This document shows positions 35,250 through 62,385 of a DNA stretch of 64,000 bases, piece by piece (within the stretch, counting starts at the first letter, position 1; the number at the start of each line of letters is the position of its first letter). The translations under genes and the position numbers were made by a program. Below the pieces are notes generated by a model. That model did not search any database. It worked only from the letters and a program-made list of their open reading frames with translations, and had not been told where the DNA came from. This stretch comes from Pseudomonadota bacterium (GTDB lineage: Bacteria; Pseudomonadota; Alphaproteobacteria; Rhizobiales; Beijerinckiaceae). Where the stretch lies: positions 62,001 to 126,000 of the forward strand of contig JAIUNR010000003.1 of NCBI GenBank assembly GCA_020161575.1. The letters run 5' to 3'.

Positions 35250-36284
35250 ATGTCTCATCTTTCCGATTTGAATGCCGAGACGCCGGTTTCCGATCCGCGC
35301 CTCACCCGCCTCGCGCGCCTGATCGCGCTGGCGATGACCGCGATCCTCGCCGTGGTTCTCGGGACCATGTTGCTGCTTCAGGAACAGCACCGCGACGCGG
35401 TGACCGCCCGTGACCGCGAGGCGCAGATGCGCCTGACCGCCGGCGCGCTGAGCAGTGCCTTCGATCAGGCCGGCAAATTCGCGCTCTCCCTCGCGGAGGT
35501 CTCGGCACGGCGCCCCGACATCGCCGCCGCCCTGCATGCTGGCGAAAAGGGCAAGCTTCAGGCGCTCTCGCAAGCTTCCTACGATTATCTCGCGCGACAG
35601 GCGGGTGTTCAGATCTATGGCTATCACAGCCGCGATATCCGTTACCTGCTGCGCATGCACCGCCCGGAAACGGCGGGCGATGACATTTCCGGCTTCCGCC
35701 CGATGGTCGTTGCGGCCAACAAGCTCCAGCGCCCGCAATCCGGCCTCGAGATCGGCATTGCCGGCATCGGGATCCGCGGCATCACACTCGTGAACCATGC
35801 CGAGGGCGGCGCGCCCCCCGCCTTTGCCGGGACGATGGAAGTCGGGCTCGATACGCGCCCGATCCTCGATCTGGTCAAGGCCTCTACCAATGCCGATATC
35901 GCGATCCTGATCGCGCCCTCGATGAGCGGTGTCGCCCTCGATCCGAAACTGCCCGTCTTCGGCGATCTCGCGCTGGCCGTCTCGACCGATGACGCGTTGC
36001 TCACCACCTTCCTCAAGGCAGGCCTTCTGAAGACCACGCGCGGGATTGAAATCCGCGAGGCCGTGGTCAGTGGCCACAACCATGTCTTCATCTCGCAGCC
36101 GCTGATCGATTTCTCGGGCAAGCTCGTGGGAACGGCGGTCGCGATCCGGGAAATCTCCCTCTCCGATTCTCGGCGCATCGATACCGAATTGCTCGTGGCC
36201 GCGCTGGTCGGGCTGATCCTCGCCTTCGTGGCCTTCATGGTGCTGACGAAGGTCGCGCTCGCGAAACTGGGGAAAGCGGCATGA
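35250..36284 (+). CDS. Membrane-anchored double-Cache (dCache_3-like) sensor without an output domain
   Basis: A 344-residue protein. TM1 is at about 24-43 (LIALAMTAILAVVLGTMLLL), a large periplasmic domain spans about 45-310, and TM2 lies at about 314-334 with only some ten residues left in the cytoplasm. The periplasmic part reads as a double Cache domain of the dCache_3 type: LARQAGVQIYGYHSRDIRYL, then GDDISGFRPMVVAANKLQ, then SGLEIGIAGIGIRGITLV. These segments are familiar from chemoreceptors and diguanylate cyclases. There is no HAMP, kinase, methyl-accepting or GGDEF domain after TM2. The stop overlaps the start of the ion-channel gene by four bases (ATGA), so the channel is the natural output partner. 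ATG 35250 is preferred; GTG 35208 lies inside a hairpin. Confidence 0.85.
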   Translation: MSHLSDLNAETPVSDPRLTRLARLIALAMTAILAVVLGTMLLLQEQHRDAVTARDREAQMRLTAGALSSAFDQAGKFALSLAEVSARRPDIAAALHAGEKGKLQALSQASYDYLARQAGVQIYGYHSRDIRYLLRMHRPETAGDDISGFRPMVVAANKLQRPQSGLEIGIAGIGIRGITLVNHAEGGAPPAFAGTMEVGLDTRPILDLVKASTNADIAILIAPSMSGVALDPKLPVFGDLALAVSTDDALLTTFLKAGLLKTTRGIEIREAVVSGHNHVFISQPLIDFSGKLVGTAVAIREISLSDSRRIDTELLVAALVGLILAFVAFMVLTKVALAKLGKAA

Positions 36285-37348
36285 GGCGCCTTCTCGCTTT
36301 CGTGCTCCTGCTGCTCGCGCAGGTTTCCGGCCAGGGCATCGGCGCCCATGCCGCGGCGGGCGATACCAGCCTTCCCTCCGGCGCGGAAACGCCGGTGCGC
36401 GTGCGTGTTCAGCTGCGGGTGCTCAATATCCTTGAAATCAAGGAAGTCGCCGGCCAGGCCCGGTTTCACATCGAGGTCGCGCAGAACTGGGGCGATTCAC
36501 GCCTCGCTTTCGATGCCGTCGCGACCGGGACGGGCCGCGTCGACCGGATCGGCGATGACGCGGACGAGTTTCTCAAGACGATCTGGGTGCCAGGCCTCGC
36601 CATCGACAATCAGGTCGGCGACAAGGATTCGCGCATCGTCGCCGTATCCGTCCATGCCACGGGCGAGGTCATGCTGATCGAGCGCTTCGAAAGCGACTTC
36701 CGCTTCCGCATGAACATGGATGCCTTTCCCTTCGACCGGCAATCGCTCTCCCTCCCGCTCTCGCTGCCGCGTTATTCGAAGCAGGAGGCGATCCTCATCG
36801 CCACCGAGGCGGACAGGCAGGTATCCGGCCTCGAGAAGGACCTCGCGGTGGTCGATTGGAAACCCGTGCGGCTGAGCTTCTCCAACGAGGAAAGCATGGG
36901 CTGGAACGCGCGTTCCTATTCGCGCCTCAACGCGGTCGTGGATCTATCCCGCCACTCCGAGCGCTATCTGCTGCGGATTTTCGTGCCGATCCTCGCCGTT
37001 CTGGCGGTCTCGATCTTCATCCTGTGGTCGCCGGGTCTGCGCGAGCAGGACAAGGGCGGCCACATCTTCTCCTCGCTCCTCGCGCTGGCGGCGATCAGCT
37101 TCACCTTCGAGGCGAGCTTTCCCGGCTCGATCTCGCTCAACACGCCGATCGCGCAGATCATCTCGCTTGGCTATCTCTATCTCGTGGCGGTCCTGATGCT
37201 GGAAATGGCGCTCGCGAAACCGATCGCCAATCCATCCTCGCGCCATCACGTCATGGCGCAGGAGCTGCGCCGTCAGATCAAATGGGCGCTGCCCGTCATC
37301 ATGATCATCATTTGTATCGGCGCGGCGTACCGGGCGATACCGGGCTAG
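36281..37348 (+). CDS. Prokaryotic pentameric ligand-gated ion channel (GLIC/ELIC-type, Cys-loop superfamily)
   Basis: A 355-residue channel subunit. A signal peptide (about 1-25) precedes a beta-sandwich extracellular domain (about 30-225) with the superfamily landmarks IWVPGLAIDN and the Pro-loop core FPFDRQ (149-154). No cysteine pair brackets the Pro-loop, as in other bacterial members. Four membrane helices follow: TM1 229-249 (with Pro236), the pore helix TM2 about 259-276 (GGHIFSSLLALAAISFTF), TM3 290-310 and TM4 about 330-349. By eye, TM2 aligns without gaps to GLIC back from the TM2-TM3 proline (Pro281), matching Glu at 19', Ala at 13', a hydrophobic 9' and Ser at 6'. It is translationally coupled to the Cache sensor. 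Its last 41 bases overlap the convergent RpiR gene. Confidence 0.9.
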   Translation: MRRLLAFVLLLLAQVSGQGIGAHAAAGDTSLPSGAETPVRVRVQLRVLNILEIKEVAGQARFHIEVAQNWGDSRLAFDAVATGTGRVDRIGDDADEFLKTIWVPGLAIDNQVGDKDSRIVAVSVHATGEVMLIERFESDFRFRMNMDAFPFDRQSLSLPLSLPRYSKQEAILIATEADRQVSGLEKDLAVVDWKPVRLSFSNEESMGWNARSYSRLNAVVDLSRHSERYLLRIFVPILAVLAVSIFILWSPGLREQDKGGHIFSSLLALAAISFTFEASFPGSISLNTPIAQIISLGYLYLVAVLMLEMALAKPIANPSSRHHVMAQELRRQIKWALPVIMIIICIGAAYRAIPG

Positions 37349-38357
37349 GCGCGCGCGCCGTATCCTCCTCGAACATCTGCCGCCAGCCGGTATGGAGGAT
37401 CGAGGGATCGGCGCCGTCAACCGAATGGTTCTTGAGCACCTCGTGCGTTTCGTTCATGCGGCGCACGAGGCCCGGCCCCTGAAACTGGCCGACAAGGATC
37501 ATCAGGATCTCGATGGCGATGAGCTGGACGACATAGGCATCGGTCCCCACCAGCATGGTGACATCGCCCGGCACGTCCATCGGCAGCAGGATATGGGCGA
37601 GGCGCGCGAGGGTCGTATCGGCCTGCGTCAACGCGATGATCGTCGCGCCGCGCTTGCGGGCAAGTTCGACCGCCCGCAGCAGGGTCGGCATGCGTCCGAC
37701 AAAGGAAATGGCGACCATGACATCGCTTTCCCCCATCGAGCCGGCGGCGATGAGCTGGAAATGCGCATCGGCGAAGGAATTCGCCCTCAACCCGAGGCGA
37801 AACAGCCGGGCGTAAAGATCCTGCGCCAGAAAATGCGAGGTGGCGCCGGTGCCGAGGCAGTCGATGCGGCGGGCGCGGTGGATCGCCTCGGCCGCGCGCG
37901 CAAAGGATTCAGGGGCAATGCGCCGCTGCCAATCGGCCAGCACCGCGCTCATCGACCCCGTGACATTGCGGATGACTTCCGCCGGGCTGTCGCCGGTATG
38001 CACGGCGCGATGGAGGAAGGGCGTGGCGCGCGCCATCGAGCCGGCGATACGCAATTTGAGATCGCGCAGCCCCTCGCAGCCGACCTGCCGCGCGAAACGA
38101 ACAATTGTCGGCGCCGAAACACCGGCGCGCGCGGCAAGATCAAGCACACTCGCGGAGACCGCCCAGGCGGGCTCTTCGAGGAAGATCGTGCCGACGCGCT
38201 GCTGGTTGCCGGACATTTCCGGCAGCATGGCGCGGATCAACGCAAGAATATCGCCCGAAACCTCGATTCCCGGCATCTCCGCGCCGGCGGCGCGTTGCCC
38301 CGCCCCTTCGGGGGGCGATGCGGAAAACCGATCGGTTTTCTGGCGAGCTTTCTTCAT
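37308..38357 (-). CDS. MurR/RpiR-family transcriptional regulator
   Basis: A 349-residue regulator with an N-terminal RpiR helix-turn-helix domain (about 35-110: NQQRVGTIFLEEPAWAVSAS, then VSAPTIVRFARQVGCEGLRDLK) and a C-terminal SIS sugar-isomerase domain (about 150-290: IDCLGTGATSHFLAQDL, ISFVGRMPTLLRAVELARKRG). SIS domains of this family bind phosphorylated sugars. It heads the minus-strand end of the second importer cluster, whose divergent operon contains KDG kinase and KDPG aldolase genes, so KDPG or a sugar-acid phosphate is a plausible effector. ATG 38357 has AGGAGATCCTGGG upstream. The tail of about 30 residues overlaps the channel gene on the other strand. Confidence 0.9.
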   Translation of the reverse strand: MKKARQKTDRFSASPPEGAGQRAAGAEMPGIEVSGDILALIRAMLPEMSGNQQRVGTIFLEEPAWAVSASVLDLAARAGVSAPTIVRFARQVGCEGLRDLKLRIAGSMARATPFLHRAVHTGDSPAEVIRNVTGSMSAVLADWQRRIAPESFARAAEAIHRARRIDCLGTGATSHFLAQDLYARLFRLGLRANSFADAHFQLIAAGSMGESDVMVAISFVGRMPTLLRAVELARKRGATIIALTQADTTLARLAHILLPMDVPGDVTMLVGTDAYVVQLIAIEILMILVGQFQGPGLVRRMNETHEVLKNHSVDGADPSILHTGWRQMFEEDTARAPSPVSPGTPRRYK

Positions 38358-61674: not shown

Positions 61675-62385
61675 ATGCCCCCTGCCCTTACCTCCGTTTC
61701 TGATGCTGCCCGCCTCAACCGTCGCACCTTCCTCTCGCTCGCAACCGCCGGAAGCGGCGCGATGATGCTTGCTGGCTGCGCAACACGTGGCGATGTGGGC
61801 CATCCCCCAGAGACGCTTCATCGCACCCGGCCGCACCTGCCCGAGCACGTACGCATGTATAGCGAATTGCCGGACGAGCGTTTCCCCATTCCGGCGGTCG
61901 ATCTCGATGAGGTTGAGGAAGGCGCGCTGCGCCGTATCGTGCGGTACGAAACCACGGAATATCCGGGCACCCTGGTGGTGGATACGCGCGAACGCGCGCT
62001 CTTTCTGGTGCTCGAAGGCGGCGAGGCGCTCCGTTACGGCGTCGGGGTCGGCAAGGACGGGCTCGCCTGGGGCGGACGCGCCGTTGTTGGCCGCAAGGCG
62101 GAATGGCCGCGCTGGACTCCCACACCCGCGATGATCGCGCGCGAACCCGAGCGCAACAGGCCCTGGGCAGGTGGTATGCCGCCCGGGCTGGAGAACCCGC
62201 TCGGCGCACGGGCACTCTATCTTTATCGCAACAATGTCGACACGCTCTACCGCATCCATGGCACGAACGAACCGTGGAGCATCGGCCAATCGGTGTCGAG
62301 CGGCTGCATCCGCATGATCAACCAGGATGCGATCGATCTCTACCGGCGCACGCCGGTCGGAACGCCGGTGGTGGTGAGGCTCTGA
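61675..62385 (+). CDS. YkuD-type L,D-transpeptidase, Tat-like lipoprotein
   Basis: A 236-residue periplasmic enzyme that cross-links peptidoglycan or attaches proteins to it. The N-terminus has an RR-containing export signal ([18 protein letters not shown]) ending in the lipobox LAGC (Cys35), so it may be both Tat-exported and lipidated. The YkuD domain (about 100-236) has [16 protein letters not shown] and the active-site pair His195 (IHGTNEP) and Cys211 (SSGCIRM). Other alphaproteobacterial YkuD proteins with the same RR-start are common. ATG 61675 gives the export signal at once; longer in-frame forms add an arginine/serine-rich stretch unlikely to be translated. Confidence 0.9.

Follow-up and report, generated by a model that had tools for sequence, protein, structure and literature searches.

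A dCache_3 sensor without an output domain is paired with one branch of bacterial pentameric ligand-gated ion channels and may serve as an auxiliary subunit

The DNA considered here is a 64,000-nucleotide stretch (hereafter the window; positions 62,001 to 126,000 of contig JAIUNR010000003.1, assembly GCA_020161575.1) from an alphaproteobacterium of the Beijerinckiaceae. It carries a two-gene module in which the gene for a membrane sensor of the dCache_3 type, with no recognisable cytoplasmic output domain, directly precedes and overlaps the gene for a pentameric ligand-gated ion channel (pLGIC) subunit. Such Cache-channel pairs recur far more often than chance would give, and all 30 channels found in one branch belong to one. 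On balance, we think it probable that the Cache protein serves the channel as an auxiliary sensing subunit and that the two form one receptor system. Bacterial nicotinic-type channels are workhorse models for receptor gating and, to our knowledge, their physiological job is largely unknown; a branch of them in which every channel found here is accompanied by a chemoreceptor-type sensor gene gives a concrete pointer to a role and a ligand class.

The overlapping genes

35250 to 36284, + strand: output-less dCache_3 membrane protein of 344 amino acids (open reading frame, Pfam, AlphaFold2 model), laid out as a short N-terminus, a first transmembrane helix (TM1, ~17-43), a periplasmic double Cache (~44-304), a second transmembrane helix (TM2, ~305-337) and a 7-residue tail
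36281 to 36284, + strand: ATGA, the four-base overlap of the Cache stop with the channel start
36281 to 37348, + strand: pLGIC subunit of 355 amino acids, with a probable signal peptide, a ligand-binding domain and four transmembrane helices

Pfam places dCache_3 (PF14827) over residues 59-303 of the Cache protein (E=6.6e-12, 46 bits against a curated cut-off of 25.7), and no output domain reaches its Pfam cut-off, HAMP and MCPsignal both being absent. The protein thus has neither of the cytoplasmic domains by which a methyl-accepting chemoreceptor is recognised, and 7 residues past TM2. In its AlphaFold2 model (mean predicted local distance difference test, pLDDT, 88.4), a long helix (16-86) is followed by two Cache lobes of alpha/beta structure, and the C-terminal helix spans 305-343; this is the architecture expected of a dCache_3 sensor, with a double Cache mounted on a long helix and flanked by two transmembrane helices. 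Searching solved structures by sequence gave no relative of this protein, and the best result of a profile search (E 0.14) was unrelated.

The channel matches Neur_chan_LBD with E=1.7e-18 (67.3 bits, curated cut-off 26), and its residues 31-346 of 355 align with GLIC (PDB 3tlt, E=9.6e-18). This alignment reaches M4, so that M1-M4 can all be aligned as in a pLGIC, and P150, F151, D152 and Q154 of the Pro-loop motif FPFDxQ are conserved. The N-terminus reads as a probable signal peptide, and the protein is the sole PF02931 match in its genome. An AlphaFold2 model of the channel was set aside as poor (mean pLDDT 64.3). The residues EQDK at the start of M2 suggest cation selectivity for the window channel; a charge selectivity fixed across the branch was dropped, as acidic residues beside M2 vary.

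Open reading frames, Pfam, the Cache model and the GLIC match together confirm the gene content given by the original prediction, a reading of the window's letters that described an output-less dCache_3 protein, an ATGA overlap and a full pLGIC subunit. It had also read the overlap as translational coupling that fixes the ratio of the two proteins; the overlapping genes do suggest coupling, but a fixed ratio is not established by overlap. At the other end, a convergent gene (37308-38357, - strand), by reading a putative RpiR-type regulator, overlaps the last 41 bases of the channel gene.

Conservation of the pair

A search that used only the channel gave 19 named loci, with relatives that include Bradyrhizobium sp. 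and Rhodoplanes, and a Cache homologue lies directly upstream in 19 of 19. Genome samples covered the order (397 genomes, sampled evenly), the phylum (249) and the class (385). The order sample holds 27 channel genes in 24 genomes, with a Cache gene directly upstream in 11 and not in 16; the phylum sample adds four more channel-bearing genomes, locus L128 having an output-less dCache_3 gene directly upstream; and the class sample adds another four, none of the three examined being paired. After removal of duplicates the total is 30 pairs, one outside the window's class. These are not independent, twelve of them falling in one group of Bosea and near relatives. The Cache stop is overlapped by a frame-matched start codon, by four or one bases, in 29 of the 30 pairs, L101 being the exception. 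Excluded from the counts were L005, from the same metagenome-assembled genome as L003; L102, which repeats L022; L131, whose channel frame is broken and which has no Cache match; and G422, which is below cut-off.

In a maximum-likelihood tree of the channels, a branch with support 100/99 separates the 30 paired channels from the 21 unpaired ones and GLIC. No Cache gene was found upstream of any of these 21, of which 20 can be judged; L129, where only 429 bases precede the channel at the contig start and the upstream gene is not visible, was counted as unpaired. The Cache tree shows the same subgroups as the channel tree. Within it, 19 chemoreceptor-type homologues and the truncated L071 make up one group, and the histidine kinase L109, on a very long branch, has no firm place.

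The reverse search gives a similar picture. The order survey scored at most five Cache-profile candidates per genome, and within that scope all 11 complete, short, output-less Cache relatives adjoin a channel. The remaining matches include 19 with MCPsignal and one histidine kinase; a further 48, taking the best match per protein, have 240-453 residues of unassigned sequence past the profile end, and four run off contig ends. The original prediction had called for such a survey and had listed lack of conservation of the pair in related genomes first among its grounds for refutation; on this point it was borne out.

The module is patchy, with the channel in 2 of 17 genomes of the window's own genus, and no channel homologue was found on plasmids (E limit 1e-5). 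One genome, G088, carries two separate pairs (L096 and L097) from different subgroups. In a distant pair (L095:4570-5937, - strand), the ligand-binding domain of the channel is preceded by ~100 additional residues rich in proline and alanine.

A chemoreceptor-type sensor that lacks its output

The nearest output-bearing homologues of the Cache protein are methyl-accepting chemoreceptors, which combine dCache_3 with MCPsignal in 19 of 19 cases and with HAMP in 18 of 19. These controls are 19 of the 21 loci L058-L078, from which L068 (the Cache of pair L095) and the truncated L071 were removed. At 21 positions that are at least 90% conserved the residue is the same in both sets, and no position is conserved but different; the two sets differ in that the chemoreceptors have MCPsignal and HAMP, whereas the channel-paired proteins are without output. 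None of the 30 paired Caches extends more than 60 residues past TM2. The 23 core pairs have 6-8 residues there, and seven distant pairs have 48-60, the start of which resembles HAMP on reading; a HAMP scan of five of these seven tails gave one weak match (E 0.0057, below cut-off) and none in four. Pfam was run on 6 of the 30 paired Caches, and for the others the absence of output rests on tail length. As part of our best explanation, these sequences suggest that the Cache protein is descended from, or sister to, a chemoreceptor sensor.

A protein of this kind could also be a co-regulated sensor that acts elsewhere. It might, for instance, use its Cache domain or, in the distant pairs, the HAMP-like tail to pair with chemoreceptors, with the channel merely sharing its operon. 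Such a role would suit the chemoreceptor signalling domains found in 12 of 12 pair-bearing genomes tested, the flagellin found in 11 of 12 and the HAMP-like tail kept in the seven distant pairs. We nevertheless consider it very unlikely: the 23 core pairs have almost nothing past TM2, no complete output-less Cache relative was seen away from a channel in the order survey, which scored at most five candidates per genome, and G188, a genome with the pair, shows just one match to a chemoreceptor domain and none to flagellin. On account of this last genome, chemotaxis was not kept as the only output, despite the frequency of both components.

The outer lobe and the ligand class

35643 to 35777, + strand: outer-lobe signature, Cache residues 132-176 (R135, H137, D144, D145, R150, N157, E167, R176)

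This signature is conserved both in the channel-paired Caches and in the 19 chemoreceptor homologues. R135, H137 and R176 align with R107, H110 and R147 of DcuS, in an alignment that is weak by score and with an Arg-His spacing one residue shorter than in DcuS, and the Arg, His and Arg are kept at the carboxylate-binding positions of DcuS and CitA. We take DcuS 107, 110 and 147 to be its ligand-binding positions. From these residues, the ligand is probably a carboxylate, bound in the outer lobe. A literature search for a known dCache_3 ligand gave nothing usable.

The outer lobe also bears on the idea that the Cache protein is an assembly or stability factor, needed for folding, insertion or clustering of the channel and not for sensing. 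Its gene comes first, and the channel start overlaps its stop in 29 of the 30 pairs, an arrangement that fits co-translational assembly. However, assembly would not require outer-lobe residues to be kept as they are in true chemoreceptors, and channels outside the branch manage without a Cache gene, so that we regard this role as decidedly unlikely.

Branch signatures and candidate contact surfaces

36473 to 36475, + strand: E65, the acidic residue of loop D (beta2); E or D in 30 of 30 paired channels and in 0 of 22 others, including GLIC
36899 to 36928, + strand: loop C signature of the branch, residues 207-216 (GWNARSYSRL)
37124 to 37126, + strand: G282, one extra residue in the M2-M3 loop, which links ligand-binding domain and pore; all 30 paired channels have a residue here (28 of them G), and the 22 others have a gap

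Channel positions are named from the GLIC alignment together with what we take to be the nicotinic numbering. In loop C, all 30 paired channels have both G207 and W208, and 29 have N209; among the 22 others, one has the G and none the W. Conservation was contrasted between sequence pairs matched for overall identity and binned. In each of the six bins, paired channels show the higher conservation of loop C, at 0.76 vs 0.40 in the 0.5-0.6 bin and 0.33 vs 0.15 in the lowest, where there are 164 control pairs. For TM2, the Cache proteins exceed the chemoreceptors in all four bins (for example, 0.56 vs 0.38 and 0.75 vs 0.57). Loop C and, less firmly, TM2 are candidate contact or ligand surfaces.

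The same residues can be read in another way, in which the two proteins work together without lasting contact: the Cache protein would capture or concentrate the ligand at the membrane surface and pass it to the channel's own site. A capture-and-handover role for fused or operonic sensor domains is suggested in the available text of Tasneem, Iyer, Jakobsson and Aravind (2004/5; PMC549065), and the strongly conserved interface positions of the channel (E/D65, G207, W208 and N209) would fit it. On the other hand, mere capture has no need of the two membrane helices that are kept, TM2 being somewhat more conserved than in chemoreceptors, and a soluble binding protein would suffice, as in the one other channel (L130) that adjoins such a gene. 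We hold handover to be unlikely.

Proposed mechanism

For an auxiliary subunit, we infer physical contact, a carboxylate ligand, cation selectivity and gating, which could be joined as follows. A GLIC-type pentameric channel, probably cation-selective, would sit in the same membrane as the Cache subunit, whose double Cache would be periplasmic. A small molecule, probably a carboxylate, would bind the outer lobe of the Cache protein, and movement from the bound lobe would reach TM2, which would pack on or near the channel and alter the ease with which the pore opens. The original prediction had proposed an accessory sensing subunit, and this is partly supported, by the conserved pair, the lack of any long tail past TM2 and the tree subgroups that the two proteins share. 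Its core idea had been published before.

Several observations weigh against this mechanism. Profile comparison matches the Cache protein with DcuS and DpiB at low probability (13 and 7%; E 0.0005 and 0.0014, as single comparisons), and of the 30 pairs three have lost H137 and two R176. The matched sequence pairs behind the conservation contrasts are not independent; the loop C bins above 0.4 identity hold only 1-6 control pairs, and the TM2 contrast is small where controls are many (0.27 vs 0.21, 128 control pairs), the larger contrasts having 6-7 control pairs each. M4, the lipid-facing helix that might be expected to touch a membrane partner, is not unusually conserved. The channel tree is rooted at its midpoint and has several long branches. 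Since the signature residues characterise a single branch, they could stem from common ancestry and not from contact with a partner. The channel also retains a conserved interface pocket of its own and may sense without the Cache protein.

A bolder and more tentative version, which we regard as possible, is that a sensor of the chemoreceptor kind shed its cytoplasmic half and was recruited as the obligate gating subunit of a nicotinic-type channel, coupling a periplasmic carboxylate directly to membrane potential. Animal calcium channels, with their Cache-built auxiliary subunits, would offer a parallel. Gating of the channel by the sensor, if it occurs, would bring an auxiliary-subunit mechanism for the receptor superfamily to bacteria, with ion flux in place of a kinase or second messenger. 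The pair is a two-protein system open to direct testing.

Comparison with known systems

The central idea has been published. The available text of PMC549065 places a Rhodopseudomonas channel (ART-LGIC) in a predicted operon with a stand-alone Cache gene, states that Cache and channel 'may similarly cooperate functionally', such pairs perhaps acting as chemoreceptors, and describes other channels fused to Cache or beside periplasmic binding protein genes. The window has the same organisation, with overlapping same-strand genes and a stand-alone Cache. This is a likeness by description, and the earlier account concerns one bacterium; the dCache_3 type, the branch, the overlap and the loss of output are not given in that text. 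What is new here is the branch-wide pairing, the loss of output, the channel signature and the ligand-class prediction. Literature searches, made mostly without subscription papers, found no test of Cache-channel cooperation, and we do not claim its absence from print; no title or start of an abstract named a Cache partner, and the available part of PMC4795631 makes no mention of Cache or an operon.

GLIC, the proton-gated channel of Gloeobacter, is the closest solved structure by sequence and shares the plan of a ligand-binding domain and four helices, but it has other residues in loops D and C and no extra M2-M3 residue. DeCLIC and other pLGICs with N-terminal domains resemble the pair as prokaryotic channels with an extra periplasmic modulating part; in DeCLIC, however, that domain is fused and, according to the available text of PMC12664993, consists of two jelly-roll lobes, whereas here the Cache protein is separate. 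The alpha-2-delta subunit of animal voltage-gated calcium channels is likewise a Cache-built auxiliary channel subunit (PMC549065, PMC4822843). It belongs to an unrelated channel family and is of another Cache type, the table in PMC4822843 listing ion-channel entries under dCache_1 and none under dCache_3. The parallel is an analogy and not homology of the pair.

Neighbouring genes and other sensor-channel loci

Across 29 loci and the window, the pair has no third gene as a fixed neighbour. Recurrent neighbour families are AraC-type regulators, RF3 genes, ABC ATPases, antisense frames and genes seen solely in the three Rhodoplanes loci. Of the 29 loci, 10 have an AraC-type regulator gene no more than ~5 kb from the pair (L009, L011, L012, L014, L015, L018, L019, L097 with two, L098 and L099), in varying places and orientations, and five of the ten are Bosea relatives; the domains were checked in 6 proteins from 5 loci. 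It is possible that these genes regulate the pair. None was seen in the sequence flanking the window's pair. A consensus scan, which says little in this group, gave no terminator and no + strand promoter. At L099, one AraC-type gene precedes the Cache gene by ~350 bases in the same orientation.

Two further arrangements concern other channels. In four genomes of one genus (L088-L091; for example, L089:3444-7293), channels of another group are found in a compact gene cluster ordered as a pyridoxal-dependent decarboxylase (Pfam, L089 only), the channel, a two-helix sensor and a many-helix transporter-like gene. The sensor is 450-477 amino acids long, with a PDC sensor domain (Pfam, L088 only, E 3.4e-6) and a cytoplasmic half that matched no family; judged by its sequences, the cluster is a second sensor-channel pairing. 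At L130 (503-6013, - strand), the gene after the channel encodes a phosphonate-type periplasmic binding protein (Pfam E 1.9e-65) and the one after that a membrane protein of 1032 amino acids, an arrangement that resembles the channels beside binding-protein genes described in the available text of PMC549065.
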